NCBI RefSeq assembly: GCF_000315055.1 | Contig: NZ_BAER01000017.1 | Span: 310,001 to 374,000, forward strand | DNA from: Paraglaciecola polaris LMG 21857 | GTDB taxonomy: Bacteria > Pseudomonadota > Gammaproteobacteria > Enterobacterales > Alteromonadaceae | DNA: 64,000 nucleotides | Direction: 5' to 3' | Part shown: piece by piece, positions 20,292 through 41,208 of the stretch | How the letters are laid out: each line of letters starts with the position of its first letter | Numbering within the stretch: the stretch's first letter is position 1 | Made by a program: the position numbers and the translations under genes | Notes under the pieces: generated by a model | What the model was told of the DNA's origin: nothing | Databases searched by the model: none | The model's input: the letters and a program-made list of their open reading frames with translations, nothing else

Positions 20292-20336
20292 TTGACAAGA
20301 ATTTAACACTACTATAACTTATATCTTATATAAGAT
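20292..20336 (+). promoter_or_regulatory. Promoter and perfect operator of the GH31-TRAP operon
   Basis: TTGACA (20292-20297), 17 bases, TAACTT (20315-20320), AT, then the perfect 14-bp palindrome ATCTTATATAAGAT (20323-20336). The operator covers the expected transcription start, 80 bases before the GH31 ATG. The same arrangement recurs before the aldo/keto reductase gene at 41164-41208 and, with a weaker -35, before the TonB receptor at 25570-25616. A repressor bound here would block RNA polymerase. Confidence 0.75.
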
Positions 20337-20416
20337 TGGATTAGGTTAACGCGTTGCACTGCATCATCCTTCGCGCTTAACCTATGTTATGTCATTATCA
20401 CCAGTGAGAAAAATTC

Positions 20417-22492
20417 ATGTCTGCATTTGATGTTACCGCTCCTAATTGGAATCAAATAAAACAAGCCAATGTTACTGGCGCAGCCAGTCTAGCAAGCGAT
20501 GGTGGTGTAATATTACCCACGTCACAGGGTGATTTACACATCACATTTCATACCTTTGGTGTGCGCCTGCGGATCGGTATCAGTGGGCAAGCCGATTATG
20601 GTCTATTGGTGACCACCCCCGATATCATCAGCCCTGACATAGTCAACAGTGAACAGCAATGCACACTTATCGCTGGTGACAGTAAATTAGTAATTAACCA
20701 CACCCCATTCACGTTTGAACTTTTTCAAGGTAATAAAAGTGTGCAACAAACGGCGAATGACGGCCACTTTGTACGCCGTTACCGTCTGCCGCCATTAGCG
20801 AAAGTAGATGAAGGCTGGTTAATCAGTTTAGAACTTGGCACCGAAGAAGCGGTTTATGGCCTAGGCGAAAAGTGGGCCAGTTTAAACAAACGCGGACAAT
20901 TAGTACGCTCTTATAATCACGATGCCCTAGGCGTTAACGCTGAAATTTCTTATAAAAACACGCCATTTTGCTGGAGTCCAAGCGGGTGGGGAGTATTTGT
21001 GCATACACCATCACCCGTGACCCACGCTGTAGGTTATGCAACTTGGTCACAGCGCTCCTACGGTGTGTTAGTAGAAGATGAAGCTTTAGACATTTTCCTC
21101 ATGCATGGTGATGACGGTCAGGCCATCATTAATACCTACACAGATTTAACCGGTAAAGCACCTACCCCACCGGTTTGGAGCCTAGGCGTTATCTTATCGA
21201 AAGCCTATTACAAAGACGTGCCGGAATTGCTGGCTACAGCAAAAGACGTGCGGGCGCATAAAATGCCCTGTGACGTTATCACTCTTGATGGTCGTGCTTG
21301 GCAAGATACCGATACCCGCTTCGCGTTCGAATGGGATCCTAAACGCTTTGACGATCCAGCGGCGGTCATCAATCAACTAAAAGCTGACAATTTCAAAGTG
21401 TGCATTTGGGAATATCCCTTGGTGTCGGTACAACATCCTTTGTTTGCTGAAATGGCCAAAAAAGGCTGGTTGTTGAAAGACAAACGCACAGGCGAAGCCT
21501 ATCAATATCAATGGGATATGAGTGCATTCGCAGAAGTACTTACTCCTTTGCCTGAGTCTGGCATTGTCGATTTCACTCATCCAGACGCCTATCAATTTTG
21601 GTTAGAGTCGCACAAGCCATTATTTGATTTAGGTGTGGACATGATCAAAGCAGACTTTGGTGAGCAAGTCGAAGATGACAACATGTTGGCATATAGCGGC
21701 GACTCAGGTAATCGCCTGCACAATGTGTACAGTTTTTTATATAACAAATGTGTGTATGAAGCGGCCGAAAAGTATTCCAAAAATGGCCCATTTTTGTTTA
21801 GCCGGTCTGCGTGGACGGGTTCACAACGTTTCCCAAGCCAATGGGGCGGTGACCCGCAAGCAGATTGGGGCGGCCTAGGCGCGAGTATTCGTGGCGCCTT
21901 ATCATGGGGCATGTCAGGAGCACCATTTTTTGCCACTGATGTAGGCGGTTTCTACAAAGACACTCGAGACCAAGAGCTTTTTATTCGCTGGTCACAAGCG
22001 GCAGTATTCAGTGCCCATATGCGTTTGCATGGCATAGGTCAGCGCGAACCATGGAGCTACGGCGTTGAGGCAGAAGAAGCGGTAAACCAGGCCCTTGTGC
22101 TGAGATACCGTTTACTGCCTTACATCTATAGTGCTATGCAGCAAGCTACTCAAACAGGCGTGCCATTGATGCGCGCCATGGCCCTGGCCTTTCCAAAAGA
22201 CCGTCTAGCGGCTGCATTCGAGCTGCAGTTTATGTTCGGTGACGATATGTTAGTGGTGCCATGCTTGAAGCCCGGCGGTGAAGTGGACTTTTATTTGCCC
22301 GAAGGCGAATGGGAACGCTTCCCAAGCGGGCAAACCTACCAAGGTGGGAAAACTTATGCCTTAACCCTGGGGTTACAGGAAATGGCGGTATTTGTACCAA
22401 AAGGTAAACGCATCCCCTTAGGTCCTGACGTTGAACACACAGACGCGTTGGCGGATCAGCAACCGCAAATTAGTCATTATTGGCCTAAATAG
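20417..22492 (+). CDS. GH31 alpha-glycosidase
   Basis: A 691-aa cytosolic glycoside hydrolase family 31 enzyme closest in motifs to YicI-type alpha-xylosidases. The nucleophile is D413 in DMIKADFGEQV and the acid/base is D479 in QWGGDPQADW, 66 residues apart as in YicI. It has the N-terminal beta-sandwich (YGLGEKW) and a C-terminal domain (FYLPEGEWERF). Subsite -1 reads R301-F-A-F304, and F512 follows in DVGGF. As I recall, sulfoquinovosidase YihQ has Arg-x-x-Trp and a Tyr at these places, so the Arg is kept and the two aromatics are changed. An anionic or sulfonated sugar is therefore possible but not proven; alpha-xyloside or alpha-glucoside are alternatives. It is the first gene of an operon with a TRAP transporter. 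Confidence 0.9.
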   Translation: MSAFDVTAPNWNQIKQANVTGAASLASDGGVILPTSQGDLHITFHTFGVRLRIGISGQADYGLLVTTPDIISPDIVNSEQQCTLIAGDSKLVINHTPFTFELFQGNKSVQQTANDGHFVRRYRLPPLAKVDEGWLISLELGTEEAVYGLGEKWASLNKRGQLVRSYNHDALGVNAEISYKNTPFCWSPSGWGVFVHTPSPVTHAVGYATWSQRSYGVLVEDEALDIFLMHGDDGQAIINTYTDLTGKAPTPPVWSLGVILSKAYYKDVPELLATAKDVRAHKMPCDVITLDGRAWQDTDTRFAFEWDPKRFDDPAAVINQLKADNFKVCIWEYPLVSVQHPLFAEMAKKGWLLKDKRTGEAYQYQWDMSAFAEVLTPLPESGIVDFTHPDAYQFWLESHKPLFDLGVDMIKADFGEQVEDDNMLAYSGDSGNRLHNVYSFLYNKCVYEAAEKYSKNGPFLFSRSAWTGSQRFPSQWGGDPQADWGGLGASIRGALSWGMSGAPFFATDVGGFYKDTRDQELFIRWSQAAVFSAHMRLHGIGQREPWSYGVEAEEAVNQALVLRYRLLPYIYSAMQQATQTGVPLMRAMALAFPKDRLAAAFELQFMFGDDMLVVPCLKPGGEVDFYLPEGEWERFPSGQTYQGGKTYALTLGLQEMAVFVPKGKRIPLGPDVEHTDALADQQPQISHYWPK

Positions 22493-22518
22493 CACCCTAC
22501 TCTGCCGGAGAACACCTC

Positions 22519-23070
22519 ATGCAAAATGCTGTCAGTCGCGGGTTACTAGCGCTTAATCGCCCGTTAGGTAAGGTCAATTATACCATCAGCTCCCTAGGTA
22601 AAAATATCGCGGGGGTGTTACTTAGCGCTATGCTGCTGATGATATTAGCCCAAGTGTTCTATCGCTACGTATTGAATGACTCATTAGCTTGGACCGAAGA
22701 GCTCGCCAAGTACCTTATGGTGTGGGTTGCATGCTTAGTCGCACCATGGGCATATAGAGAAAATTTGAATGTTTCTATTGAGATGTTCGCCGATGCCCTG
22801 CCGAGCGGACTGCGCCGAGTAACCGAAGTCATCATTACCTTATTGGTTATCATGATAAGTGGAATGTTTTTTAAGCAGAGTGTGGCGTTTTGGCAAGGCG
22901 GCATGGAAATCTATGCCTCATCAATGCCGATCAAACTAGCGTATTTCTACGCTTGTGCACCACTGATGTTTGCCGCGTTATTTTTAGTTGGTATTGAAAA
23001 CTTAATTAAACAACTCTTTGCCCGAGATTATCTCACCGAGCAAACTATTCCCCCAATGGAAGTCGAATAA
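22519..23070 (+). CDS. TRAP transporter small membrane subunit (DctQ-type)
   Basis: A 183-aa protein with four hydrophobic helices and the DctQ hallmarks QVFYRYVLNDSLAWTEELAKYLMVWVACLVAPWAYRE, read here in pieces, then an amphipathic link and two further helices. DctQ proteins join the periplasmic binding protein system to the large permease. It lies 26 bases after GH31 and is followed directly by the large subunit (stop at 23070, next ATG at 23072), so all are one operon. The substrate is set by the DctP protein below. Confidence 0.92.
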   Translation: MQNAVSRGLLALNRPLGKVNYTISSLGKNIAGVLLSAMLLMILAQVFYRYVLNDSLAWTEELAKYLMVWVACLVAPWAYRENLNVSIEMFADALPSGLRRVTEVIITLLVIMISGMFFKQSVAFWQGGMEIYASSMPIKLAYFYACAPLMFAALFLVGIENLIKQLFARDYLTEQTIPPMEVE

Positions 23071-23071
23071 T

Positions 23072-24358
23072 ATGTCTATCAGTTATTTTTGGGTTTTCAT
23101 TTTATTGTTAACCGCCGGTACACCTGTGGTATTTGCTTTGTTAATTGGACCGGGCGTGAGTTTGATGCTAGATGGTAATCAAGTGTTTTTCTCAGCGCTG
23201 TTAACCCGATTATATTCGGGGATGAATTCATTTCCATTGATGGCCGTGCCCTTTTTCATCTTAGCCGGTGAGCTGATGAATCAAGGTGGTATTACGCAAT
23301 CAATCGTGCGCTTTAGCCAAACCTTAATTGGTCACTATCGTGGCGGCTTAGCACAAGTGAATATTTTATCCTCGGTATTATTTGCGGGGCTTTCAGGCTC
23401 AGCGGTAGCTGACACATCGGCTTTGGGGAAAATGCTTATTCCCGCCATGGAAGAAAACGGTTACAGCCGGCGCTTTGCCGCTGCGGTGACAGCAGCATCG
23501 TCAGTCATCGGACCGATTATTCCCCCATCGGGGATCATGATCCTGTACGCCTTTATAATGAATGTATCAGTAGCAGGCATGTTTTTGGCCGGCATTACCC
23601 CAGGTTTATTGATTTGTGCAGGCTTAATGATTGTCACCAGCCGCATTTCCAAAAAACGTAATTATCCGGTAGCCAATAAAAAAGCCACTTGGTATGAACG
23701 TGGTAGTGCCTTTAAAAAATCATTTTTACCCTTGTTAACACCGGTTATATTGTTAGGCGGTATTGTATTGGGGGTATTTACACCGACAGAAGCAGCCGCT
23801 GCCGCTGCGGGTTATGCACTGATCATTACCTTGTTTGTTACCAACACCCTCAAATTCGATAAGCTACCGCACATATTAGTGAATGCGGCAGTTCAGTCAG
23901 GCACGATATTACTATTGGTCGGCTCGGCAGTCACCTTCGCCTGGATCATAACGGTATCGGGTATGGCAGATATGCTGGCTGCAAATATCGTGGGTATTAC
24001 CGACAACGTGTTATTACTGTTGCTTATCATCAACCTGTTCTTATTTGCCATCGGTATGTTCCTCGATGCAGGTCCTGCGATATTGATCCTAGGCCCAGTA
24101 TTGGCTCCAATATTTATATCCTTGGGGATAGACCCACTGCATTTTGCGGTGATCATGTGCGTTAACTTAACGGTTGGCCTCGCGACCCCTCCCATGGGCT
24201 TGGTGCTTTTTGTAGCTGCATCAGTGTCAGGGGAAAAAACCGAGAATATCGCCTATGAGATGCTGCCCTTTTTAGCAGTAGAAGCCTTGGTAATATTCAT
24301 CATTACTTATTTTCCTGCGGTCACTATGACCTTGCCTCGTCTATTTGGGTTTGCCTGA
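23072..24358 (+). CDS. TRAP transporter large permease (DctM-type)
   Basis: About 428 aa and 11-12 transmembrane helices of the DctM family (Na+-driven import). Conserved segments are FFILAGELMNQGGIT, GLSGSAVADTSALGKMLIPAMEENGYSR, IGPIIPPSGIMILYAFI, FTPTEAAAAAAGYAL and NLTVGLATPPMGLVLFV. The open frame extends upstream to 23018 inside dctQ, but ATG 23072, just after the dctQ stop, gives the normal N-terminus. Its TGA at 24356 is followed one base later by the ATG of the binding-protein gene. Confidence 0.94.
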   Translation: MSISYFWVFILLLTAGTPVVFALLIGPGVSLMLDGNQVFFSALLTRLYSGMNSFPLMAVPFFILAGELMNQGGITQSIVRFSQTLIGHYRGGLAQVNILSSVLFAGLSGSAVADTSALGKMLIPAMEENGYSRRFAAAVTAASSVIGPIIPPSGIMILYAFIMNVSVAGMFLAGITPGLLICAGLMIVTSRISKKRNYPVANKKATWYERGSAFKKSFLPLLTPVILLGGIVLGVFTPTEAAAAAAGYALIITLFVTNTLKFDKLPHILVNAAVQSGTILLLVGSAVTFAWIITVSGMADMLAANIVGITDNVLLLLLIINLFLFAIGMFLDAGPAILILGPVLAPIFISLGIDPLHFAVIMCVNLTVGLATPPMGLVLFVAASVSGEKTENIAYEMLPFLAVEALVIFIITYFPAVTMTLPRLFGFA

Positions 24359-24359
24359 T

Positions 24360-25400
24360 ATGAATACAAAACGCATCGTACTTCTTGCTGTTTATGCCTG
24401 TATTGCAGTTGCCAGTGTTGTGGGTATGGTTAACTCAAATTCTGATCGCGCCGAATTCATCATTAAAGCGTCCATACAGGCGTCGACCCAAGATGAAGAC
24501 TATGTGGGCTTGCTCGCATTTAAAGAATATGTTGAACAGGCCAGCAAGGGCCGAGTTCAGGTACAACTGTATTCATCAGGGCAGTTTTGTGGCGGGGTAC
24601 CTGAGTGTATCGGTAACCTGCAAAAGGGTGTATTGGAAATGTTTCCTACCACAGCTGGCGGGACGGGGAATTTCTTCGCGCCTGCTCAAGTGCTTGATTT
24701 ACCTTATGTATTCGATAATGACAAACAAGCTCAATGTGTTCTCGATGGACCGATCTTAGGTAAAATGCGTGAAACGGTATTGGCGCAAAATCTACAAATT
24801 CGCTTAATGGGTGTGACCAACACTGGTGGCTGGCGTAATTTCGCCACGACCCGTAAACCGATACATCATCCCCGGGATTTAGTCGGGCAAAAAATTCGCA
24901 CCACCCCAGCCAAAATACAACAAGAACTGGTTCGTCAACTTGGAGCAAACCCTACCCCAGTGTCATGGGCTGAACTGTATACCGCCTTAGCTACGGGCGT
25001 GGTCGAGGGCAGTAAAAACGGGATTCAAGATATTATCGGCGCTAAATTAGAAGAGCACTTAAAATACATAGTGCTCGACGGTCATTCATATATGGCTGCT
25101 TTATGGTGGTTTTCTGAGCCCGTATGGCAGTCATTGCCAGCTGATATTCAAGAAATCATTGAACAAGGTTTTGTCCTCCAGCAAAAAGCGGCAAATGATC
25201 TGGTCTTTAACCAAGAAGCCAATTCGTACACCTTATTCGAAAAAGCCGGTGGTACCGTTTATCGCCCCACTGCGGATGAAAAGCAGGCATTTAAAGATGC
25301 GTCAAAAGATATGCGTCAATGGTTTGAAGATAATTATGGCAATGACTGGCTACAATTATTAGAAAGTTCAGTGGCTCAATGTTCGCGTCAATCCGGTTAA
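24360..25400 (+). CDS. TRAP periplasmic substrate-binding protein (DctP-type)
   Basis: About 346 aa from ATG 24360; an in-frame TTG at 24345 inside dctM is unlikely. An N-terminal hydrophobic segment (RIVLLAVYACIAVASVVGMV) acts as signal or anchor. The DctP core is clear: LAFKEYVEQASKGRVQVQLYSSG, the Arg that salt-bridges the acid group of the ligand in VGQKIRTTPAKIQQ, and WAELYTALATGVVEGSKNG. TRAP ligands are almost always anions: carboxylates, sugar acids or sulfonates such as isethionate, taurine or DHPS. Co-transcription with a GH31 glycosidase implies import of an acidic sugar or glycoside. It is the last gene of the operon and is followed by a hairpin. Confidence 0.92.
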   Translation: MNTKRIVLLAVYACIAVASVVGMVNSNSDRAEFIIKASIQASTQDEDYVGLLAFKEYVEQASKGRVQVQLYSSGQFCGGVPECIGNLQKGVLEMFPTTAGGTGNFFAPAQVLDLPYVFDNDKQAQCVLDGPILGKMRETVLAQNLQIRLMGVTNTGGWRNFATTRKPIHHPRDLVGQKIRTTPAKIQQELVRQLGANPTPVSWAELYTALATGVVEGSKNGIQDIIGAKLEEHLKYIVLDGHSYMAALWWFSEPVWQSLPADIQEIIEQGFVLQQKAANDLVFNQEANSYTLFEKAGGTVYRPTADEKQAFKDASKDMRQWFEDNYGNDWLQLLESSVAQCSRQSG

Positions 25401-25569: not shown

Positions 25570-25616
25570 TTAACTTTATGGTTAAATTTTGTCTATCTTT
25601 TGTCTTATATAAGACA
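25570..25616 (+). promoter_or_regulatory. Promoter and 16-bp perfect palindrome before the TonB receptor
   Basis: TGTCTTATATAAGACA at 25601-25616 is an exact 16-bp palindrome containing the same core as at 20323-20336. A TATCTT (25594-25599) sits 2 bases before the 14-bp operator, with TTAACT (25570-25575) 18 bases further up as a weak -35. The spacing of -10 and operator is as in the other two target promoters. It lies 171 bases before the receptor ATG. Confidence 0.7.
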
Positions 25617-25787: not shown

Positions 25788-28196
25788 GTGGAGAACACCA
25801 TGTTACTAAAACCTAGCACACTACATACTGGCATTACGCGCGCACTAGCCATCGGTGCATGTATGACCATCGGCTTCGCCGCTAGCGCGCAAGAAGCCGC
25901 GCCTGTTGAAGATAAAGGCTTAATGGAGAAGATCACTGTTACGTCGCAAAAACGCGTAGAAAACCTCAACGAAGTTCCCGTTGCCGTATCTGTGTTACGT
26001 GAAGACCAAATTAATTCTGCGTTCTCTGCGAACATTGAAGGCCTACAAGCATTGGTGCCTTCCGTTAGCTTCCGTAAAGGTAACACCAACCGTAACTCCG
26101 CGATTACCGTGCGTGGTATCGGTACTATATCATTCAGTGTGGCGGCAGAGCCAAGCGTATCTACCGTGGTTGATGGCGTAGTGTTAGGCCGTTCAGGACA
26201 AGCATTCGTTGATTTATACGACTTAGAGCGTATCGAAGTATTACGTGGTCCTCAAGGTACGTTATTTGGCAAAAATGCATCTGCTGGTGTGGTAAACATT
26301 ACCACCAAACGCCCTTCTGATGAATTTGGCGGTACGGCTGAAGTCACCTTGTTTCAGGGCAATGAATACCGTTTAAAAACCAGTGTCACCGGTGCCCTAA
26401 ACGATAATGTAAACGGTAGCTTGACCGTATTGAAATCTCAGTACGACGGCTACATCGACAATGTCTATAACAATGAAACAACCAACGGATACGACAAAGA
26501 AGGTATTCGCGGTATGTTAGACATTGATGCCGGTAACGATACCGACATTTTGTTCATTTTTGAAAACGTTAAGTCTAATGATAACTGTTGTGCAGATTTA
26601 GAACTTGCGCCAAGCAACCGTTATCTTTCCTCTGACGCTGCACCAAACAGCACAGGCAACGGCGACCTAGATTTAGAACAACGTAAAATTGACCATGATT
26701 TTGAAACACGCACCATAGATGAAACCACAGGTTTCTCAGTGCAAGTAGACAAAATGATCGGCGATCACGAATTCACCTCAATCACAGCGTACCGTAGCTG
26801 GGACAACACAGAGTTCCGCGAAGGTGATTTCACCTCAACAACGGGTTCAATTCCGTTACCGGTTGATTTCGGTAGCGTTCCGGATGGTGGCGTAGGATTT
26901 CAACTGCACGATACGGGTGTACAAAACTGGAAACAAACCTCTCAAGAGTTCCGCATTGCCTCTCCTGTAGGCGGTGATTTTGACTACCAATTAGGTGCAT
27001 TCTGGTGGACACAAAAATCAGAGCGTAACTTTACCCGTGATGCCAGCTGTCAAAATAACGGTGGTCAATTCCCAGCAGCAATTGGTACGTACTTAACAGA
27101 GAGCCTTGGCATAGCAGATCCATCTGAAGCGCAGGTTAATCAGTTTATCGCCGATGAGAACTTAAGCTGTAATGCTAACGACATCGTTGGCGCCACTGCG
27201 TTCATGCGTACACAATTTGATAACTGGGCATTATTCGCTGACGGTAAATACCACATCAATGATGACTTACGTTTACTGTTCGGTATTCGCTACACTGACG
27301 ATGAAGTGAGCTACTCACATGACCGTAGTAGTAATGACGAATACAAACGCACAGGTGTTGGCGTACGTAGCTTTGAGACCAATTATCAAGGTGAAACCGA
27401 TGAAACCAATGTGTCTGGTAAAATTGGTGCCCAGTATGACTTAACTGACAGCAGCATGGCCTACTTCACCTTCTCACAAGGTTACAAAGGCCCAGCATTT
27501 AACGTGTTCTACAACATGGCTGATGCTGATTCTTTACCCATCGATAAAGAAACCTCTGATGCGTACGAGTTAGGCTATAAATACGCAAGCAATGACTTGA
27601 TATTCAACGCGGCAATCTTCAGAACCAACATTGATGGTTTCCAAGCGAATAACTCTGAATTATTGGATGGCGTAACCATTACCCGTTTAACTAACGCCGG
27701 CTCAGTTACCACACAAGGTATTGAGTTTGACGTGATGTGGCAGGCAACTGATAACTTCACCCTAACCGGTGGTTTATCTAGAGTTGACGCTGAAGTCGAT
27801 GAGTTCAAATGCCCAGTGACTGATGCTAATTGTACTGGTCGTTCTGGTGCAGATTTGCCTTTCTCGCCGGATCTAAAATACTCAGTCACTGGCGAATACT
27901 TATGGGAGCTGGATAACATGAACGTTATCTTAAATAGCTCATATGTATACACTGACGAAATGTACGCTGGCGCACCGGGTGGCACTGCGACTGCTATAGA
28001 CTTACTACCAGACTACGGCATTTTGAACGCAAGCTTGGCATTCTCGTTTGACGACGATGCTTATCGTATAAGCTTGATTGGTAAGAACCTTACCGATAAG
28101 AGCTTTGTTACCACTTACAGTGGCGATAACTTCCGTTATCAAATCCCACGTGATGCAGACCGTTACTTCGGTGTGCAATTACGCGCACACTTCTAA
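25788..28196 (+). CDS. TonB-dependent outer-membrane receptor
   Basis: An 802-aa TBDR. Signal peptide near residues 1-34 (GACMTIGFAASAQ-E). The plug domain begins KITVTSQKRVENLNEVPVAVSV, with IRGMLD, TTKRPSDEFGG and the LERIEVLRGPQGTLFGKNASAGVVNI segment, read here in pieces. The 22-strand barrel ends with an aromatic residue (RAHF). It is of the sugar/iron-type CirA-like class common in marine Alteromonadales. The ATG has GGAG upstream. The gene is monocistronic, with its own operator site matching those of the GH31-TRAP and dioxygenase operons, so it probably imports the same oligomeric or lipid-linked substrate across the outer membrane. A terminator follows. Confidence 0.94.
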   Translation: MENTMLLKPSTLHTGITRALAIGACMTIGFAASAQEAAPVEDKGLMEKITVTSQKRVENLNEVPVAVSVLREDQINSAFSANIEGLQALVPSVSFRKGNTNRNSAITVRGIGTISFSVAAEPSVSTVVDGVVLGRSGQAFVDLYDLERIEVLRGPQGTLFGKNASAGVVNITTKRPSDEFGGTAEVTLFQGNEYRLKTSVTGALNDNVNGSLTVLKSQYDGYIDNVYNNETTNGYDKEGIRGMLDIDAGNDTDILFIFENVKSNDNCCADLELAPSNRYLSSDAAPNSTGNGDLDLEQRKIDHDFETRTIDETTGFSVQVDKMIGDHEFTSITAYRSWDNTEFREGDFTSTTGSIPLPVDFGSVPDGGVGFQLHDTGVQNWKQTSQEFRIASPVGGDFDYQLGAFWWTQKSERNFTRDASCQNNGGQFPAAIGTYLTESLGIADPSEAQVNQFIADENLSCNANDIVGATAFMRTQFDNWALFADGKYHINDDLRLLFGIRYTDDEVSYSHDRSSNDEYKRTGVGVRSFETNYQGETDETNVSGKIGAQYDLTDSSMAYFTFSQGYKGPAFNVFYNMADADSLPIDKETSDAYELGYKYASNDLIFNAAIFRTNIDGFQANNSELLDGVTITRLTNAGSVTTQGIEFDVMWQATDNFTLTGGLSRVDAEVDEFKCPVTDANCTGRSGADLPFSPDLKYSVTGEYLWELDNMNVILNSSYVYTDEMYAGAPGGTATAIDLLPDYGILNASLAFSFDDDAYRISLIGKNLTDKSFVTTYSGDNFRYQIPRDADRYFGVQLRAHF

Positions 28197-28917: not shown

Positions 28918-29553
28918 TTAAGAACCACAGCAAGACGACTTGGCTTTCTTTTCAACTTCGCCTTTGAGCAGCGCTTTGGACTCTTTGACTATTTTCAAGG
29001 ATGACTGCACGATAACAAGGGCGATAATAGTGCCTATCACCAAATCTGGAATTGCCGAATCTAGCCATACAACGAGAACAGCAGAAATAATCACCCCAAC
29101 ATTGGCAATCATGTCATTGCGAGAGCAGATCCAGCTGGCGCGCATGTTGATATCACCAGTACGGTAACGGGACAGCAAGATAAAACAAAACAGATTCACC
29201 GCCAGTGCAAGTAATGAAATCCACAGCATAATGCCCGTTTGTGGTTCGCTGCCTCCCACAAGACGCATCACCACATCCAGCAATATGAAGCCAGCTAACA
29301 CCAACTGCAAACTGCCGTTAAATAACGCCGCTTTCGCCTTATATTGTATGGCTTTGCCCACAGCGTATAATCCCACCATGTAAACCATGGCATCAGCCAG
29401 CATATCTAGCGAGTCCGCCATTAGGCCACTTGAGTCCCCTAACCATCCGGCAATGAATTCAACAAAAAACATGCCTCCATTTAACCCAAGCACTGTCCAT
29501 AATAAGGTTCTTTGTTCTTTATCTTGGGCATTAACGCCACAGCACTCACTCAT
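28918..29553 (-). CDS. Cation-diffusion-facilitator-type metal transporter, short form
   Basis: A 211-aa membrane protein with the N-terminal CDF signature GLNGGMFFVEFIAGWLGDSSGLMADSLDMLADA (read here in pieces), about six hydrophobic helices and the paired Asn/Asp site SRNDMIANVGV in the fifth. It lacks the cytosolic C-terminal domain of full-length CDFs. Both ends carry Cys pairs (SECCG and SSCCGS), likely metal-loading sites. It is divergent from a MerR-type regulator across a promoter with a 19-bp spacer, which is the MerR-controlled architecture. Export of Zn, Cd or Pb is the expected role; the metal is not fixed by sequence. Confidence 0.88.
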   Translation of the reverse strand: MSECCGVNAQDKEQRTLLWTVLGLNGGMFFVEFIAGWLGDSSGLMADSLDMLADAMVYMVGLYAVGKAIQYKAKAALFNGSLQLVLAGFILLDVVMRLVGGSEPQTGIMLWISLLALAVNLFCFILLSRYRTGDINMRASWICSRNDMIANVGVIISAVLVVWLDSAIPDLVIGTIIALVIVQSSLKIVKESKALLKGEVEKKAKSSCCGS

Positions 29554-29586
29554 TGGGTTCTCGTTACTTTGTTATCGAATCAGCGT

Positions 29587-33180: not shown

Positions 33181-34229
33181 AGTCTGGGTTCCTCTAAGCT
33201 CATTCCCGCTCTTAGTTTTCGTAGATTTGAGTTCACCAGCACATCTCCTTCGCGCAAACCACTGATGGCAATAGCACCTGTAGAATTGACCGATTCAATT
33301 TGTACCGTTACTGGCACGGCTTTATCTTGTTGAATTTTCCACACTTGAAAACGCCCCAGGGACGCGGTATCTATTGCAGTCATCGGTATTTGATAGCCTG
33401 ATGGCAGGGTTAAGCCAGACTTCGCCATATCAATGCGCACTTGAGCATTGTTACCAGGTAAAATAGCCGGGCTCACTTGTGGCATAGATAACCAAAACTG
33501 ATAGGTTTGTGATTGTGGATTAAGCTCACTGGTGTGTTCTAAATACCTCAGTGGGTACTCTTTATTACTCCCAGAGAAGTGCGTAATAGCTTGATAGTTT
33601 AGGTTGTTGAGTAACGGTTTTAGACTGGTTAACACTGTGTCTGAAACCGATATTTCCACATACACATTTGCATTTTCATATACACTCAATACCGTCTCGC
33701 CTGCGGTTGTGCGCTCAAAATTCTGCTTTGAAACTTGTGAAACAATGCCATCAAATGGGGCGTTGAGACGGGTGTAATTCAACTGCACCTGAGCAAGCTC
33801 AGCATTGGCTAATGCCAATTTATAATTCGCTAGCAACTCATCGAGCTCAGAGCCAGAAATCATCTCATTAGGACGCAGTTCTCTACCCCTATCGAGTTGA
33901 CGGCGCACCAGACTCAATTTTGCTTGGGTATCCACTAGGTTTTGTTTTAACTTCGCGTCGTCTAGCATTGCCAGTAATTGACCTTTTTTGACCGCGTCCC
34001 CTTCATGCACGATGACATCAAGGATTTCCCCTTCAAGGCGAAATGCCAAAGGGGTAAGCTCAGGTGGTATAACTTGACCGTTGAAGGTACGTACTTGTGT
34101 CTCAATCGGCGTCATCACGGTAAACGTGTCAACAATTAAGGGGGGTTTCGCTCTGTGCTCGATGTTCGGTGAACACGCTTGAACAGTGAATATCATCAGT
34201 CCTGTGGCCATGAATTTCAGCATATTCAT
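33177..34229 (-). CDS. RND periplasmic adaptor lipoprotein, second adaptor
   Basis: About 350 aa from ATG 34229, which shares one base with the stop of the upstream adaptor gene (TAATG); the open frame runs to 34253. The signal MLKFMATGLMIFTVQAC is a lipoprotein type, with Cys as the likely lipidation site. The HlyD/MFP core comprises a lipoyl-like beta strand pair (ILDVIVHEGDAVKKGQLLAMLDD), a coiled hairpin (LVDTQAKLSLVRRQL...LNYTRLNAPFDGIVSQVS) and a beta-barrel. It joins the RND pump to the outer-membrane channel. Confidence 0.92.
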   Translation of the reverse strand: MNMLKFMATGLMIFTVQACSPNIEHRAKPPLIVDTFTVMTPIETQVRTFNGQVIPPELTPLAFRLEGEILDVIVHEGDAVKKGQLLAMLDDAKLKQNLVDTQAKLSLVRRQLDRGRELRPNEMISGSELDELLANYKLALANAELAQVQLNYTRLNAPFDGIVSQVSKQNFERTTAGETVLSVYENANVYVEISVSDTVLTSLKPLLNNLNYQAITHFSGSNKEYPLRYLEHTSELNPQSQTYQFWLSMPQVSPAILPGNNAQVRIDMAKSGLTLPSGYQIPMTAIDTASLGRFQVWKIQQDKAVPVTVQIESVNSTGAIAISGLREGDVLVNSNLRKLRAGMSLEEPRL

Positions 34230-35302
34230 TAAATTCCATCCTCTTCTATCCAAGCTTTTACTCGTTGACCTTCTCGCAAGTTTTCAATGCCGGTTTGCAC
34301 AACCAAGTCGCCTTGAGCGAGCCCCCCTTGCACAAACCCGTGACTATCTAACATCACCAGCACTTGAGTAAGACTTTGCTCGGCTTTATCAAACTTCCAT
34401 ACCCGGCCTTGCTGGTCGTTGCGACTTATCCACGCTGTTTCTGGTAGTCGGAATAAGCGACTTTCTTCTTGATTTAGCAGGTGAACCTGCCCAGACATAT
34501 CCGTCAATAACGTCAGATCCTGCGGGCGCTTAATCGTCACTCGAGCCGTATAACTATTGGTGTCTTTGTTGGGTTGAGTCGATATTTCTTTAAATTGTGC
34601 AGGGATCATTAGGCTACGCTTAGCATCCATAGTCACAGACAGCCTTGATTGACTAATTTTGTCGATACCGTATTTTTCAACATAACTAATTGGTAAGGTA
34701 AAAATCACATCCATGACTGTGTTATTGAGTAATTTCACAATCGGCTGCTTTGCCCCCACAACTTGATGTGACTCAGCCATGGTCAATGACACTATACCGT
34801 CAAACGGTGCCGTGATTTTACTATAGGTTAAATCGGTTTTTGCCTGCTCGAGTTGCGCGCTTGCAACTTTTAAATTTGTATCGTTTTGCTCGAATTGGTC
34901 GGTACTGATCAAACTTTCGGCAAATAGCGCGTTAGCACGTAGATATTGAGTTTTGGCTAAGTCAAACTCGGCCTGACGTGCATCCAACGTTAACTGGTAG
35001 TCAGTTGGGTCAAGATAAGCTAATACCTCACCCTTTTTAACCTGCCTGCCCATGCGCACCATTTTTGAGTCAATTTCGCCAGCGACGTTAAAGGATAAAA
35101 CCGCCCGCTCGGTCGCATCTGTTTTACCGATGAAACTGTCAGTATGTTGTTGGTTTATATTGGGTACTTTGCTCAACTTTACCGGTTTGATGATGCTGTC
35201 GACTTCTTGTGAGTTCACGCTATCGCAACCCGGTAGCAGCACACCAACATTTAACACTAAGCCAACAAGGGCAATCAAACGACCCAACTTTTTACTCAAC
35301 AT
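34229..35302 (-). CDS. RND periplasmic adaptor lipoprotein, first adaptor
   Basis: About 357 aa. The frame is open to 35353, but ATG 35302 gives a clean lipoprotein signal, MLSKKLGRLIALVGLVLN then LLPGC-D. The MFP core is visible: SFNVAGEIDSKMVRMGRQVKKGEVLAYLDPTDYQ, read in pieces, an alpha-hairpin, and YSKITAPFDGIVSLT. It is the first gene of the three-gene pump operon. The paired adaptors differ in sequence, which fits a TriA/TriB-like division of labour. It is divergent from a TetR regulator. Confidence 0.92.
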   Translation of the reverse strand: MLSKKLGRLIALVGLVLNVGVLLPGCDSVNSQEVDSIIKPVKLSKVPNINQQHTDSFIGKTDATERAVLSFNVAGEIDSKMVRMGRQVKKGEVLAYLDPTDYQLTLDARQAEFDLAKTQYLRANALFAESLISTDQFEQNDTNLKVASAQLEQAKTDLTYSKITAPFDGIVSLTMAESHQVVGAKQPIVKLLNNTVMDVIFTLPISYVEKYGIDKISQSRLSVTMDAKRSLMIPAQFKEISTQPNKDTNSYTARVTIKRPQDLTLLTDMSGQVHLLNQEESRLFRLPETAWISRNDQQGRVWKFDKAEQSLTQVLVMLDSHGFVQGGLAQGDLVVQTGIENLREGQRVKAWIEEDGI

Positions 35303-35340
35303 AAGCCACTCTCTCACTATTGGGATTTGAACACGCCGCC

Positions 35341-35375
35341 ATTTATTACACACTTGTATAGCTATTTATTACACA
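35341..35375. repeat. Direct repeat of a 12-mer in the RND/TetR intergenic region
   Basis: ATTTATTACACA at 35341-35352 and again at 35364-35375, 23 bases apart start to start (about two helical turns), just upstream of the first adaptor ATG. This spacing on one DNA face suits a pair of regulator sites, presumably for the divergent TetR protein, although TetR operators are usually palindromic. Confidence 0.5.
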
Positions 35376-35487
35376 GGCGTGCAGTATATTGAGTAAAGCA
35401 GCAAGATCAACTTATATTTACCACTTGGGCAATATAAAGATGAAAAGCGCGTAGATATCTGTTAAAACGGGGCGATATTTAGTCACA

Positions 35488-36216
35488 ATGAATGTAATGA
35501 ACGAACGAAAGCAAGGGCGCAGAAGCGCCGAAGACGCAGAAAAGACCAAACAAGATATATTACAAAAGGCCGCCGAATTATTCTGTGATCTCGGTTATGA
35601 GCAGGTATCGTTACGTAATATCAGTGAAAAGGCGGGGGTATCCCATAGCCTTATTCGACATCATTTTGGTAGCAAAGAGAATATTTGGCATTGCATCAGT
35701 GATGGATTACATCATTTCATCGCTAGATATGTGGTGGTCGTTAACCAACATATGCCCGAAACCTATCCATCTAACATTAGGCTTTTTGAGTTTTCGGTGC
35801 GCATGTTGGCGTATATGCTGACGTTTAAGCAACCGGTACAATTGCTTGCTGATGCGGTTCGCCAGGATGACGCCTTAGTGGACTATTTTATTAGCCAAGG
35901 CGATGGCATTGAAGATTTTGTTGAAGGTCTGGTTAAGGCCCACAATAGCGACTTCCCCGATGCGCAAATTCGCATGTGGGATCTTAAGTGGCAAATTATT
36001 ATGTATGCTCACGCAGCTGCTTCGTTGACACCATTTTTAAAAGAAACGTGGATCGACGAAACCGATAGTCTGGATGAGTGCTTATTGCGACATTTCAGGT
36101 TATTCGAGGAAATGTTGGCGGCAAAGTTAAAAATAGCTCAGCCTTATCGCGTTTCTCCCAAACGGGTACAAGATTTAGTGTATGAAGTGCCTGCCCCTGA
36201 TCCAGCAGCCCAATAA
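35488..36216 (+). CDS. TetR-family regulator of the RND pump
   Basis: 242 aa. The N-terminal HTH reads DILQKAAELFCDLGYEQVSLRNISEKAGVSHSLIRHHFGSKENIW, given here only as two parts: helix 1 with ELFCDLGYEQVSLRNIS and the recognition part AGVSHSLIRHHFGSK. The C-terminal part is a helical ligand domain (residues about 75-215), ending in a Pro-rich tail. It lies divergently beside the pump operon, so it most likely represses it and responds to pump substrates. No nearby alternative target exists. Confidence 0.9.
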   Translation: MNVMNERKQGRRSAEDAEKTKQDILQKAAELFCDLGYEQVSLRNISEKAGVSHSLIRHHFGSKENIWHCISDGLHHFIARYVVVVNQHMPETYPSNIRLFEFSVRMLAYMLTFKQPVQLLADAVRQDDALVDYFISQGDGIEDFVEGLVKAHNSDFPDAQIRMWDLKWQIIMYAHAAASLTPFLKETWIDETDSLDECLLRHFRLFEEMLAAKLKIAQPYRVSPKRVQDLVYEVPAPDPAAQ

Positions 36217-36311: not shown

Positions 36312-36710
36312 TTATTTAGCGCGAGGAGGCATTAAATGCGTTGGTAACTGTGCTCGCCTGCCTATAGTTCGTTCACCATAGTTTGCACTCAAGTAATCTA
36401 AAATCTGTTCCTCTTGGGGTAAGGGCCACAAGTTCTGTGTTTTTTGCATCCAGCGGATAGTACTCAACCAACGTTCCCGGCTCATGTGGTTCTGTGTTAC
36501 CAATTTGCCAGAGTGACAGGCGGTACAATGGGCACGCACCGTTTCAAATCCGGGCTTAATCACAAAGCCAGAAATGGGATCAATGCCACTCTCTGGGGCA
36601 GTAGTTTCAGCCATCGCGCTCGTAAAACTCAACAGAGCGACCGTCAGTAGACCAAACATTGAGAACCATTGAATCTTTGAGTTTCGACAGGTGATAAGTG
36701 GTGTACTCAT
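36312..36710 (-). CDS. sorB: c-type cytochrome subunit, SorB-like electron acceptor
   Basis: About 132 aa from ATG 36710, which lies 2 bases after the stop of the sulfite-dehydrogenase gene. A Sec signal ends near SAMA-E. It has one haem c site C62-T-A-C65-H66 (HCTACHSGK) and a helical C-terminal part with HMSRERWLSTIRWMQ, with Met candidates for the axial ligand. A small periplasmic cytochrome directly after a SorA-type enzyme is the SorAB arrangement, in which the cytochrome takes electrons from sulfite oxidation. It is the last gene of the five-gene operon starting at 41103. Confidence 0.75.
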   Translation of the reverse strand: MSTPLITCRNSKIQWFSMFGLLTVALLSFTSAMAETTAPESGIDPISGFVIKPGFETVRAHCTACHSGKLVTQNHMSRERWLSTIRWMQKTQNLWPLPQEEQILDYLSANYGERTIGRRAQLPTHLMPPRAK

Positions 36711-36712
36711 CC

Positions 36713-38053
36713 TTACATCACTTGCACAGCAACGCGGTGACATGCGTTGTTTAAATAACCTTTGGGGTTCCAGCCTGGCAATATCATCGGCTGACCCACG
36801 CCGTCACTATCGGTCGCCTTCGCCCAGACTTCGAAATAACCCTTGCTAGGGAATTGAATTTGGCTATGCCAATGTTGCCACGCGTTACGATTCACTGGTT
36901 TTTCTAGGGAAGCGACTAGCCAGGTTTGTCCAAAATCAATTGATAATTCGACCTTGCTCACGGCCTTATCCCCTGCCCATGCATGTCCGCGCACCGGGAA
37001 TTGCACATCTTTTTTATGGCTGTCCCCAGATTTAGGATACGTAATAAGAGACTTAATTGGCATAGCGTGAATAATGCACATGTCTTCGTCTGCAACTTTA
37101 CTGCCCGGTGCGACCGGCTCACAAGGCACCCTATACGCGGGTGCCGCCATTTTCGCGCCGTCATGTATTTGGTCTCGTATCACAATACGCTCAAGCCATT
37201 TACCAGAAGTTGATGCTGGCCATCCGCCAATGACAAGACGCAGAGGGTGTCCGTTCATAAACGGAATATCTGCGTCGTTCATCGCCCACGCAATAAGGTT
37301 TTCCTCTTCAAGCGCCTTATTTATCGGCACACCACGGGAAATAGCTTCTTTACTTGGATCACCACTGATGTGAGTGTCTTTACCGTAATAACCTATATAC
37401 ACAGCATCATCTTTAATACCCACGTCTTTGAGTACATCGGCTAACCGTACGCCCGTCCACTTAGGACATGCCACTGCGCCGGTAGTCCATTGATTGCCTT
37501 TCGCCCCCGGACTAAACTCTGCTCGACCATTGCCACCGCACTCAAGGGTAAGCTGGTAACTATGATGGGTAAATTTTTGCTTTAAATCGGCCAGGGTGTA
37601 TTGCTTGCTTTGCTTAGCAGACTCGCCCTCTATGGTGAGCAACCAATTCGCTGGGTCGATGCTCGTCGGCGGAATACCATTGTTGCGTACGAACATGTTT
37701 TCCGCTGTGGTAATTTTGTCATCAAGCAAGTGTGCTGGCGTTTCGGCATTAATAGGACGATCGTTCAATACCACCAGCCCTGCGCTCTTACCAATGATCC
37801 TAAAAGAATCCTTGGTTTGGGCGATTGCACTGGAAATCATACCCGATGGTAATAGAGGTGCCAGCAATGTTTGCGCACCGGTCAAAGCACCAAAAGTACC
37901 TAAGCCCATTAGAAAGCGTCGTCTGGTTATATCTGCGGTCGCTTTCGATGAAGGCGGTGTTGAAACATTACCCGTGTTTACATCATTGGCTCTTGCCGTA
38001 GGACCCTCGGCAGAAGAAAGCGCAGACGTAACCTTGGTCTTTGCTGATTTCAT
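36713..38053 (-). CDS. sorA: Periplasmic sulfite dehydrogenase, molybdopterin subunit (SorA/SoxC type)
   Basis: A 446-aa protein of the sulfite oxidase family with a Tat signal (ITRRRFLMGLGTFGALTG at residues 42-59) after an unusually long leader. The Mo ligand is C172 in LTLECGGNGRAEF. The VACPKWTGVRLADVL, NGHPLRLVIGGWP and C-terminal Mo-co dimerisation domain (VELSIDFGQTWLVASLEKP) are family features. The enzyme oxidises sulfite to sulfate in the periplasm and passes electrons to the following cytochrome. Upstream in the operon are a YeiH-type exporter, a TauD-type dioxygenase and an aldo/keto reductase, so the sulfite probably comes from a sulfonate cleaved in the cytosol. SoxC-like or SorT-like relatives are alternatives. 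Confidence 0.85.
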   Translation of the reverse strand: MKSAKTKVTSALSSAEGPTARANDVNTGNVSTPPSSKATADITRRRFLMGLGTFGALTGAQTLLAPLLPSGMISSAIAQTKDSFRIIGKSAGLVVLNDRPINAETPAHLLDDKITTAENMFVRNNGIPPTSIDPANWLLTIEGESAKQSKQYTLADLKQKFTHHSYQLTLECGGNGRAEFSPGAKGNQWTTGAVACPKWTGVRLADVLKDVGIKDDAVYIGYYGKDTHISGDPSKEAISRGVPINKALEEENLIAWAMNDADIPFMNGHPLRLVIGGWPASTSGKWLERIVIRDQIHDGAKMAAPAYRVPCEPVAPGSKVADEDMCIIHAMPIKSLITYPKSGDSHKKDVQFPVRGHAWAGDKAVSKVELSIDFGQTWLVASLEKPVNRNAWQHWHSQIQFPSKGYFEVWAKATDSDGVGQPMILPGWNPKGYLNNACHRVAVQVM

Positions 38054-38076: not shown

Positions 38077-39072
38077 TTAAAGATAAGGAAGGCATACCAA
38101 GATCAATCCAGCTATCCATACCGTTTCTAGCACCAGTAACAAAATAGGCTTAAAGCCCACTGTGAGTAATTGGCTTAAATTAGATTTCATACCAATGGCG
38201 GCAATGGCTATCACTAATGCAAAACGCGAAATATCAGCGGATACTTTGGTCAATACCTCAGGCAAGGCTATCATGCTGTTGATACTCATCAAAATAACAA
38301 AACCGATTAAAAACAAGGGAATACCTGGTGCTTTGGCATGACTGGTTTTATCCATCTTCATGCGTAGTACTAATAAAATACACACCACAACCGGCATTAA
38401 TAACGCTACGCGAACCAATTTGGTTAATGTCGCTAACACCCCGGTTTGCTCTGAAACCGAATACCCAGCCCCAACGACTTGAGCCACGTCATGAATAGTT
38501 CCACCAAGGAAAATGCTGGTGGCGGTTTCATCGAGCTCTAACATTCCGGCGATAATGGGATACACCACCATAGCCATGGTGGATAAGGCGGTTACACCAA
38601 TAATAGTGAGAAGTGTGTCGCGATCTTTGTCTTTACTGTCAGGTAAAACGGCTGAGATAGCCATGGCAGCGGATGCACCGCATATGCCCACGGCCCCACC
38701 AGTCAATACACCAAAGCGTTTTTGTAAGCCAAACGCTTTGGCGAGCACAACACCCAACAAAATAGTGCTCATTATCGCCACAACAAGCAGCAAGCCGGTT
38801 TTCCAGCCTAGGGCGATTAAGTCACCAAAAGCGATACGTAAACCGAGTAATGCTACGCCAATGCGTAAAATGGTACTGGCGGTAAATTCGATACCGCTTT
38901 TACACTGAGTGCCTTGATGTAAAAAAGACATCGCAATGCCCAGTAACAAGGCAAATAACATGGCGGGCGCACCATAATGCTCGCTTAAAAAAAGCGCCGC
39001 CATGCCGACCGTCGTTGCCACCATAATGCCAGGTAGCAATGTTTTTATTTTTTCCATATGCGTTTTGTCCAT
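38077..39072 (-). CDS. yeiH: YeiH/UPF0324 family membrane protein (putative sulfate/sulfite exporter)
   Basis: A 331-aa protein with about 10 transmembrane segments and the UPF0324 features LLPGIMVATTVGMAALFLSEHYGAPAMLFALLLGIA (read in pieces), RIGVALLGLRIAFGD, GAVGICGASAAMAI and FLGGTIHDVAQVVGAGYSVS. The family is annotated as putative sulfate exporters and is often next to sulfonate degradation genes. Here it lies between the dioxygenase and the sulfite dehydrogenase in one operon, 66 and 23 bases from its neighbours, and would carry sulfite or sulfate out of the cytosol. An alternative start is ATG 39057. Confidence 0.88.
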   Translation of the reverse strand: MDKTHMEKIKTLLPGIMVATTVGMAALFLSEHYGAPAMLFALLLGIAMSFLHQGTQCKSGIEFTASTILRIGVALLGLRIAFGDLIALGWKTGLLLVVAIMSTILLGVVLAKAFGLQKRFGVLTGGAVGICGASAAMAISAVLPDSKDKDRDTLLTIIGVTALSTMAMVVYPIIAGMLELDETATSIFLGGTIHDVAQVVGAGYSVSEQTGVLATLTKLVRVALLMPVVVCILLVLRMKMDKTSHAKAPGIPLFLIGFVILMSINSMIALPEVLTKVSADISRFALVIAIAAIGMKSNLSQLLTVGFKPILLLVLETVWIAGLILVCLPYL

Positions 39073-39138: not shown

Positions 39139-40128
39139 TTAATTCATCGCTAAGGCAACAAGCACTTCACGCTTGCGTTCACCTGAATACGGACGACGAC
39201 CATGCATGCTCATATAGTTATCAACTAAGGCCACATCACCGTCTTGCCATGGCAAGTCGAAAGTGTAGTCCTTCGCCAAATCGGTCGCTAACTGTAAACC
39301 TTCGACGGGTATAGCGCTGCCATCACCAAAAGTGATCGCGCTTGAAGGGTTTTCACGAACGCCTTTCCAGCCCATAAACGCAGCAATGAGCTGGTTGTAG
39401 AAGACTTCTTTACCGTTATCTAGGGTTACAACAGCAGGAAGTACAGGTGTGGTGGCACGCAAGCCATCATCTTCAGTCCATACCCAGCTGTAGCCTAACT
39501 CTTTCAATTTGGCTTCGGCTTGTGCTTGGCTCTCAACACTTAAGGTGCTTTTCCAGCTGCGTCCCTGACCCGATGCAATGTCGTTTTCAGACGGCATATG
39601 GGTGGTGTACTTTAAGCCTTTGTTGATAAAGTCTTCAGCCAATTTCGGCTCACGAGATTTCAGCTCAGCAAACACCAAGTCAGAACGACATATCGGCGTA
39701 GCCCCGCCCTCATCAGCAGCGGCTTTACAGAAGAAAAATACCTTACTTGGTGAAATAGGCGTTTGCGCCATTTCATGATGCAAGAATATCTCAACGTGCT
39801 TAGGCGCCTCATTGGCAGTAAACACGCGCTCAGTAAAGTTGATACGCACTGCGTTTGACAATGATTCTTTATAGGTGAAATTTGGATAGCCAAAAGCATT
39901 CGAAAACTCATCAAACGTTTCAGCAGAATTTAACGGAAAACCACGAAATAAAATGGCGCCTGATTCTTTTAATTCGGCCTCAAGAGCCGCTTTATTTTGC
40001 GCTATCCAACCGGCACAATCATCGAGTGTCTTTAACGAACCATCGTTAAGAACCACCCGAGGAAAAACCGAATCACCGCTTTTTAGTTGATGCGGTACGT
40101 CAACATAATTAATTGCTTGAACTGACAT
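39139..40128 (-). CDS. TauD/TfdA-family Fe(II)/2-oxoglutarate dioxygenase
   Basis: A 329-aa protein of the TauD/clavaminate-synthase-like fold. Metal ligands can be placed: H117-x-E119 in FLHHEMAQTP (an HxE instead of the TauD HxD) and distal H309 in YMSMHGRRPYSGERKRE. R320, 11 residues later, is the likely 2-oxoglutarate anchor. Such enzymes can break C-S bonds of alkanesulfonates by hydroxylating the carbon next to sulfur, which gives sulfite and an aldehyde. It lies 9 bases after an aldo/keto reductase and upstream of sulfite-handling genes, which supports that role. The substrate cannot be read from sequence; a sulfonated sugar is inferred from the shared operator. Confidence 0.85.
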   Translation of the reverse strand: MSVQAINYVDVPHQLKSGDSVFPRVVLNDGSLKTLDDCAGWIAQNKAALEAELKESGAILFRGFPLNSAETFDEFSNAFGYPNFTYKESLSNAVRINFTERVFTANEAPKHVEIFLHHEMAQTPISPSKVFFFCKAAADEGGATPICRSDLVFAELKSREPKLAEDFINKGLKYTTHMPSENDIASGQGRSWKSTLSVESQAQAEAKLKELGYSWVWTEDDGLRATTPVLPAVVTLDNGKEVFYNQLIAAFMGWKGVRENPSSAITFGDGSAIPVEGLQLATDLAKDYTFDLPWQDGDVALVDNYMSMHGRRPYSGERKREVLVALAMN

Positions 40129-40137
40129 GATTACACC

Positions 40138-41103
40138 CTAATCGTAGATTGGATAGAAAGTATTGAATGCGCCTTCACAAAAATGGCCTGGATCATTGAA
40201 GCGGCGATTGCTGTTAAGGCCATTGATATCGTCCATTTCTTGCTGCGACAGTTCGAAGTCAAAAATGGCGAGGTTTTCTGCTAAACGTTCAGGTCGTGAC
40301 GTTTTTGGAATAATGGCATTTCCACGCTGTACACCCCAGCGCAGAACGATTTGTGCTGCCGTTTTGCCTAAACGCTCGGCCGCGGCTTTTACCACACTTT
40401 GCTCTAAAACCGACTCAGCTGCACCAGCCATGTCTAGCTCAAGGTACGACAATGCCCCAAGCGGCGAGAATGCGGTGACTTGAATGTCATACTGCTTGGC
40501 CAATTTCATTAAACGTTCTTGGGTCAAATAAGGGTGTGACTCAACTTGCAACATTGCCGGTTTGATCTTGGCATAGGCCATTAAGTCGTTTAATAAACCT
40601 GTGTTGTAATTACACACACCAATTTCTTTGGTTAAGCCTTTTTCAACCAATGATTCCATCCCTTGCCACGTTTCAAAAAGCGGCACAGGTGCCAATTCCA
40701 TTTTTGGATTAGCTGCGCTTGGATCGGTTATCCACTCTGGCGGATAACGGTCATCAAAAGCCACAAATGGCTGGGCAATTGGGAAATGGATAAGATAAAG
40801 ATCGAGATATTCAAGTTGTAGATCCGTTAATGAACGCTCTATGGCCTGCTGTACATGCTCTTTTGCATGATAGGTATTCCATAATTTTGAAGTGATCCAC
40901 AAATCTTCACGTGAACATAACCCTTCTTCAATGGCACGCTTAATTCCTTGGCCAACCTGTACTTCATTTCCGTAATCGCAAGCGCTGTCTAAATGACGGT
41001 ACCCTGCTTTGATGGCCTCATAAACGGCATCTGCACAGATATCTTGGGGAATTTTCCAAAGGCCGAATCCGACCTTTGACATTTTGCTCTGGCTAAGTGA
41101 CAT
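40138..41103 (-). CDS. Aldo/keto reductase, first gene of the desulfonation operon
   Basis: 321 aa from ATG 41103, with AGGA 8 bases upstream. The frame extends to 41157, but that would put the start beside the operator, so the internal ATG is preferred. The AKR catalytic tetrad is complete: D39 and Y44 (HLDSACDYG), K73 (ITSKLW) and H106 (YLIHFP). A NADPH-type phosphate site IIPKTSRPERLAEN follows near the C-terminus. The enzyme would reduce a sugar aldehyde or ketone. Next to a desulfonating dioxygenase, a dialdehyde such as 6-oxo-glucose is the expected substrate, as reported for reductases in the oxygenolytic sulfoquinovose pathways. Confidence 0.88.
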   Translation of the reverse strand: MSLSQSKMSKVGFGLWKIPQDICADAVYEAIKAGYRHLDSACDYGNEVQVGQGIKRAIEEGLCSREDLWITSKLWNTYHAKEHVQQAIERSLTDLQLEYLDLYLIHFPIAQPFVAFDDRYPPEWITDPSAANPKMELAPVPLFETWQGMESLVEKGLTKEIGVCNYNTGLLNDLMAYAKIKPAMLQVESHPYLTQERLMKLAKQYDIQVTAFSPLGALSYLELDMAGAAESVLEQSVVKAAAERLGKTAAQIVLRWGVQRGNAIIPKTSRPERLAENLAIFDFELSQQEMDDINGLNSNRRFNDPGHFCEGAFNTFYPIYD

Positions 41104-41163
41104 ACAATCATTCCTACGGTAGTTGGCTACTGATAAACAAACGTTAAATAAATTCAATGTTAT

Positions 41164-41208
41164 ATCTTATATAAGACATAAGTTAAGGTACTGTGTGTTA
41201 TTTGTCAA
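41164..41208 (-). promoter_or_regulatory. Promoter and GntR-type operator of the AKR-dioxygenase operon
   Basis: On the minus strand: TTGACA (complement 41203-41208), 17 bases, TAACTT (complement 41180-41185), AT, then GTCTTATATAAGAT (complement 41164-41177). It is the same element string as at 20292-20336, differing only in the spacer and one operator base. The operator lies 61 bases before ATG 41103. The 182 bases further right to 41390 hold no other feature. Confidence 0.75.

Follow-up and report, generated by a model that had tools for sequence, protein, structure and literature searches.

A 12-bp palindromic operator, TCTTATATAAGA, is repeated at three promoters of the window analysed here, a stretch of 64,000 nucleotides from Paraglaciecola polaris LMG 21857 (contig NZ_BAER01000017.1, positions 310,001 to 374,000). 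The promoters precede a GH31 glycosidase-TRAP transporter operon, a TonB-dependent receptor gene, and an operon encoding an aldo-keto reductase (AKR), a TauD-family dioxygenase, a YeiH-type transporter and a SorAB-like sulfite dehydrogenase. The sharing is real, and the operator is both specific and old. A HutC-type GntR repressor encoded beside the GH31 operon probably controls these three units, which would serve the use of sulfoquinovose (SQ), the sulfur-containing sugar found in photosynthetic membranes, as well as its own gene; we put the probability at about 0.78, with binding, repression, ligand and substrates inferred from sequence. Because the operator stands in front of the GH31-TRAP, receptor and AKR units, SQ import would be tied to SQ breakdown.

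The first-pass annotation of this DNA had described palindromes at the three promoters, and a scan of the window confirmed them, with the exact 12-mer core at 20324-20335, 25603-25614 and 41165-41176. Operator 1, in the GH31 promoter, is a perfect 14-bp palindrome (20323-20336, 14/14 positions paired) and operator 2, ahead of the receptor gene, a perfect 16-bp palindrome (25601-25616, 16/16). Operator 3, ahead of the AKR gene (41164-41177), has a perfect 12-bp core with one outer pair broken. The weaker copies reported in front of the GntR/UTRA gene are also present: TCTTATACAAGA at 20115-20126 carries one mismatch and points to probable autoregulation, and CATTATATAAGA at 20086-20097 carries two and is uncertain. 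As the annotation had also stated, the GH31 and AKR promoters share one layout. In the GH31 promoter (20292-20320, plus strand), TTGACA (20292-20297) is followed by 17 bp, TAACTT (20315-20320), 3 nt and the operator; in the AKR promoter (41180-41208, minus strand), TTGACA (41208-41203) is followed by 17 bp, TAACTT (41185-41180), 3 nt and the operator. The receptor promoter has TATCTT at the same spacing to its operator, as claimed, and no conserved TTGACA -35 element. Over the sites compared, TTGACA was found at 32/33 GH31 sites, where the two hexamers also keep their distance, at 32/42 AKR sites and at 0/34 receptor sites. The window by itself is weak evidence and only mildly unusual: seven matches were found at up to two mismatches against 3.15 expected, and 3 of 100 shuffles reached seven.

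Genome-wide, the motif is not common: in 5,239,503 bases there are three exact copies of the 12-mer, each at one of these loci (3/3), against a chance expectation of 0.3-0.7 copies per genome, anywhere. When the 16-mer was searched genome-wide at up to three mismatches, 10 places were found compared to 31 for the reversed control. The best three matches were those at the receptor, at AKR and at gntR; the match at GH31 was one of those with three mismatches.

Upstream regions were then compared in 22 Paraglaciecola genomes. The TauD dioxygenase is present in 16 of them, and it is exactly these 16 that also carry the GntR gene and three or four exact operators. In all of these cluster-bearing genomes (16/16) the operator is kept ahead of the GH31, receptor and AKR genes. 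The six genomes devoid of both TauD and GntR lack the operator set; in one of them a lone copy was found, next to genes unrelated to the cluster. The genus set holds 53 exact copies in total, of which 48 correspond to the three sites in 16 genomes. The remaining five (L064, L066, L072, L080, L082) have unrelated genes beside them and were rejected as new regulon members, 5/53 being no more than chance. One of them, a fourth exact operator in genome G015 (L082:2367-2378), lies 18 bp ahead of a glycerol kinase gene, identified by reading its sequence, and draws interest since glycerol would come free from SQ-glycerol; it is a lead from one genome only and could be due to chance. The site TCTTATACAAGA precedes gntR in 11/16 genomes. 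These include two in which gntR is unlinked to the other units (L071 and L077): in one it sits on a separate contig, in the other at a distance of over 1.5 Mb.

The operator pattern extends beyond the genus to Alteromonas, Aliiglaciecola, Glaciecola, Pokkaliibacter and Balneatrix. Genome records were scanned with the dioxygenase alignment, and of the 294 relatives obtained the 80 best loci were examined (11 named Paraglaciecola overlap the genus set), counting operators at up to one mismatch and only loci with enough upstream DNA. The operator was found upstream of AKR at 35/65 loci, of GH31 at 16/23 and of the receptor at 22/27; it was absent at this threshold upstream of the internal genes YeiH (0/31) and TauD (0/80). 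Across 109 sites, ten of the twelve operator columns are invariant, an invariance partly built in by the preselection of sites at up to one mismatch; a central column is T or C, and columns further downstream vary. Of the 36 exact copies in 16 further operator-positive genomes, 33 belong to these loci and three are elsewhere (L242, L250, L256). The 33 include the copy at a receptor with 78% identity in one Alteromonadaceae genome (L217), some 35 kb from the other genes. Pokkaliibacter and Balneatrix have the AKR-TauD pair on one contig and gntR, with its operator and more distant TRAP and GH31 genes, on another; the two loci carry the same exact operator. Some receptor genes show other arrangements: a tandem pair of palindromes precedes the TonB receptor in Aestuariibacter (L115:3074-3116) and Alteromonas hispanica (L125:3842-3881), and an exact operator precedes a different TonB receptor, with 27% identity, in an Arenicella metagenome-assembled genome (L242:1501-1512; G676:C19:5203).

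The TTGACA-17-TAACTT arrangement common to GH31 and AKR could in principle reflect a copied promoter, or a coincidence, with no regulation behind it. However, the operator stays exact at all three genes in the 16/16 Paraglaciecola genomes while the downstream flanks vary, and the receptor promoter differs and nevertheless carries it. Moreover, none of 29 control palindromes matched in composition was ever found exact at the loci of the relatives; at one mismatch the best reached two AKR, one GH31 and three receptor loci. An explanation by copying or chance is thus barely credible.

The claim that one repressor governs three units spread over 21 kb is supported by the co-occurrence of operator and regulator, by the gntR site, kept even where gntR is unlinked, and by a published HutC-subfamily motif. 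GntR was searched for in the genomes of 46 of the 80 loci: operator and GntR were both present in 14, operator only in one, GntR only in one and neither in 30 (Fisher, 9e-10, a value that ignores shared ancestry and overstates independence). Several observations weigh against control by this repressor. No gntR-proximal site was found at up to one mismatch in 5/16 genus genomes. At 30/65 AKR loci, namely L126, L130, L131 and the more distant dioxygenase relatives, no operator was detected at the same threshold; a replacement regulator was sought at L126, L130 and L131 in ten neighbouring proteins, a part of the neighbours, and none was a transcription factor, three being without family. GH31 is not immediately preceded by the operator at L108, L122, L123, L127 and L128. 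Two genomes are discordant: in L107, an assembly of 2.5 Mb, an operator was found and a GntR was not, and L170 has a GntR (35% identity) and no operator. Both would fit a different transcription factor reading the palindrome. Against such a factor stand the 14/1/1/30 distribution, the site at gntR and a printed SdhR palindrome with the same core, and we consider it quite improbable.

The regulator is encoded on the minus strand (19316..20065, likely start ATG 20065) and has the domains of the HutC subfamily, a GntR winged helix-turn-helix (Pfam, 1.9e-22) and a UTRA domain (2.1e-30). Judged from sequence, the presumed targets have a palindrome at their promoters and the regulator gene has one close by, which also agrees with this subfamily. 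In Suvorova 2015 (PMC4494728), SdhR, a HutC-subfamily protein, is given the palindrome TCTTATGTCTTATATAAGACATAAGA, an exception to the usual GT-N4-AC. This palindrome contains the 12-bp core found in the window, and its outer arms are matched only in part. The 12-mer string was found in one paper within the literature searched.

A class search covered 369 genomes, 15 of which had the 16-mer at up to one mismatch; 14 of the loci were new. A GntR match was found at six of these new loci and not at the other eight; the core palindrome alone is therefore no proof of a regulator nearby. The GntR gene lies beside sdhC at L196 and L197 (enlarged as L211 and L210), with malate dehydrogenase divergent where scanned, beside a malic enzyme gene at L203 (L212), beside a galactarate-dehydratase-like gene at L198 (L213) and in another SQ cluster at L194; these five proteins share 35-37% identity with the window GntR. 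The sixth, in an Alteromonadaceae SQ cluster (L199), shares 62%. We take the GntRs at L210-L213 to be SdhR. In genome G407 a second site lies upstream of a gene read from its sequence as isocitrate lyase. In a phylogenetic tree of the GntRs, the Alteromonadaceae SQ regulators form one group (support 99/99), the four SdhR-like proteins stand apart (98/93) and six other SQ-cluster GntRs belong to neither. This tree, built on a set without the Pokkaliibacter and Balneatrix proteins, has a very long outgroup that leaves its root unsure. The recognition helix VSQGT(V/M/L)RKA is present in 32/32 ingroup GntRs, the L210-L213 proteins included (VSQGTVRKA in the window protein, compared to TSRTTVRQA in DasR), and probably goes with the unusual palindrome.

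The name SdhR implies control of sdh and tricarboxylic acid (TCA) cycle genes. The window GntR might be SdhR in this sense, acting mainly on the TCA cycle with the SQ genes as secondary targets; the operator core within the SdhR palindrome and the 35-37% identity to the SdhR-like proteins are compatible with such a role. However, the window GntR is found at SQ genes, unlike the SdhR-like genes next to sdhC and malate dehydrogenase, malic enzyme or a galactarate-dehydratase-like gene. Its exact operator copies all lie at SQ genes, and the sdhC locus of its own genome is siteless, the best match having 4/14 mismatches. The SdhR-like proteins, moreover, form their separate supported group. SdhR by function was rejected for the window protein on the siteless sdhC locus, and a main role in the TCA cycle is highly improbable.

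The first unit comprises, on the plus strand, the YicI-like GH31 glycosidase (20417..22492; Pfam), a putative non-canonical sulfoquinovosidase, and the TRAP transporter genes DctQ, DctM and DctP (22519..25400; Pfam). The TonB-dependent receptor (25800..28196, plus strand; Pfam) likely starts at ATG 25800. The third unit lies on the minus strand. The AKR (40138..41103; Pfam Aldo_ket_red, 2.1e-46), a candidate 6-dehydroglucose reductase with a SquF-like role, likely starts at ATG 41103 rather than at the listed TTG 41157, which sits at the operator edge. It is adjacent to the dioxygenase gene (39139..40128; Pfam TauD, 1.7e-32), a candidate SQ dioxygenase in the SqoD role, whose invariant alignment columns include H118, E119 and H309, which we take to be the iron ligands. 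The YeiH-type transporter (38077..39072; PF03601, TIGR00698 below cut-off) is a candidate sulfite/sulfate exporter. It is followed by the SorA-like molybdopterin subunit of the sulfite dehydrogenase (36713..38053; PF00174, PF03404; NCBIfam SorA, 6.7e-70, below cut-off) and the SorB-like c-type cytochrome subunit (36312..36743; NCBIfam SorB, 1.6e-6, below cut-off; no Pfam match).

Between the two halves of the presumed regulon lies an efflux island (28918-36216) with genes for cation efflux, MerR, an RND pump, two fusion proteins and TetR. At three loci of relatives (L063, L065, L083) no homologues of the island were found and the units are closer together; the 21-kb spread thus seems to stem from an insertion that parted units under common control. 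In two relatives (L081:19135-19501 and L084:860-1179) a neighbouring GH127 gene was seen only as several short matches, and it may be broken or cut by the end of the fetched stretch. Elsewhere in the window (54378-62708), a cluster encodes a sulfatase, an FAD oxidoreductase, a sodium symporter and a TonB receptor; it has no operator match at up to two mismatches.

The assignment to SQ draws on the gene content of the third unit. A review (PMC12890257) describes the sulfo-ASDO (sulfo-SDO) pathway of Marinobacterium aestuarii, with SqoD and SquF, and PMC13372026 calls sulfo-SDO characteristic of Oceanospirillaceae and Alteromonadaceae. The operon order AKR, dioxygenase, export and sulfite dehydrogenase fits sulfo-ASDO by analogy. 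The two systems have in common a TauD-family dioxygenase beside a reductase, sulfite-handling genes and a marine gammaproteobacterial host; the window system differs by the addition of a sulfite dehydrogenase, TRAP, a TonB receptor and a GntR regulon. The terms regulator, GntR, TRAP and TonB do not occur in the main text of the review. The strongest support found for SQ comes from the sequence of the Balneatrix neighbourhood, in which gntR and the operator adjoin genes for a short-chain dehydrogenase/reductase (SDR), a lactonase, an aldehyde dehydrogenase, an IlvD/EDD dehydratase, an HpcH aldolase, TRAP and GH31. This set, which resembles sulfo-Entner-Doudoroff (sulfo-ED) and includes a GabD-like gene, matches in its gene types the sulfo-ED steps named in the review (PMC12890257). 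The best PDB match of the SDR is sulfoquinovose 1-dehydrogenase (1.1e-81; next match, 2.1e-67). At an Alteromonadaceae locus (L216) a TauE/SafE gene lies between gntR and GH31.

The GH31 enzyme and the database scores count on the other side. By low-identity alignment, GH31 has both Asp residues matching D405 and D472 of YihQ, presumably its catalytic pair. However, of the YihQ residues R301, W304 and Y508, which we take to bind the sulfonate, W304 and Y508 are replaced by F and R301 aligns to a gap or D, again at low identity; the best PDB score is against YicI. A canonical, YihQ-type sulfoquinovosidase was rejected on these residues, and GH31 would be either a different kind of sulfoquinovosidase or an enzyme for another glycoside. 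In place of the sulfonate-binding segment, 13 GH31s of the clade show a near-invariant GRAWQDTxTRFxFEW, perhaps marking a new GH31 substrate group. SorA, SorB and YeiH all score under the curated cut-offs. In NCBIfam the Balneatrix dehydratase is above the L-arabinonate dehydratase cut-off, and the SDR is nearest to D-xylose dehydrogenase, below cut-off. A real regulon for another 6-sulfonated or acidic glycoside would suit the YicI-like GH31, and the sulfo-ED-like set does resemble other oxidative sugar routes. Nevertheless, oxidation of a sulfonate to sulfite is implied by the AKR and the dioxygenase together with SorAB and the candidate sulfite exporter. With the SDR match and the sulfo-SDO reported for Alteromonadaceae (PMC13372026), this makes such a substrate rather unlikely. 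The yih system of E. coli likewise has, by annotation, a dedicated regulator (CsqR) and a GH31 (YihQ) for SQ. It differs in its sulfo-Embden-Meyerhof-Parnas chemistry and in YihQ, whose sulfonate residues the window GH31 lacks; CsqR belongs to the DeoR family, unlike the window GntR.

In the mechanism that we propose, dimeric GntR (19316-20065) would bind TCTTATATAAGA where it closely follows the -10 hexamer of the three promoters, and would also bind near its own promoter. It would repress three units: GH31-TRAP, the receptor gene and AKR-dioxygenase-YeiH-SorAB. The repressor would be released once its UTRA domain binds a ligand, the likeliest being SQ, a glycoside of SQ or 6-dehydroglucose. 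SQ glycosides would cross the outer membrane through the receptor and the inner membrane through TRAP, and GH31 would liberate SQ. The dioxygenase would then cleave the C-S bond to yield 6-dehydroglucose and sulfite; the AKR would convert 6-dehydroglucose to glucose, and sulfite would be exported or oxidised.

The class of regulator and the palindrome are known, the latter being already in print for SdhR of the HutC subfamily (PMC4494728). An SQ regulon under this palindrome and its tie to a TonB receptor were not found in the literature searched, which left out key SQ-pathway papers; within that literature, both are new. More tentatively, and at somewhat less than even odds, an SdhR-type regulator-operator pair may serve as the SQ switch for two SQ pathways across marine Gammaproteobacteria, the dioxygenase pathway and sulfo-ED in Balneatrix and perhaps Pokkaliibacter, with an SQ-specific TonB receptor and a new type of GH31 sulfoquinovosidase lacking the YihQ sulfonate pocket. 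With the conserved 12-bp operator, genomes could be searched for the SQ regulon, its unlinked genes included. It names a candidate regulator, and it flags an outer-membrane receptor and a glycosidase that would be missed by comparison with YihQ alone.

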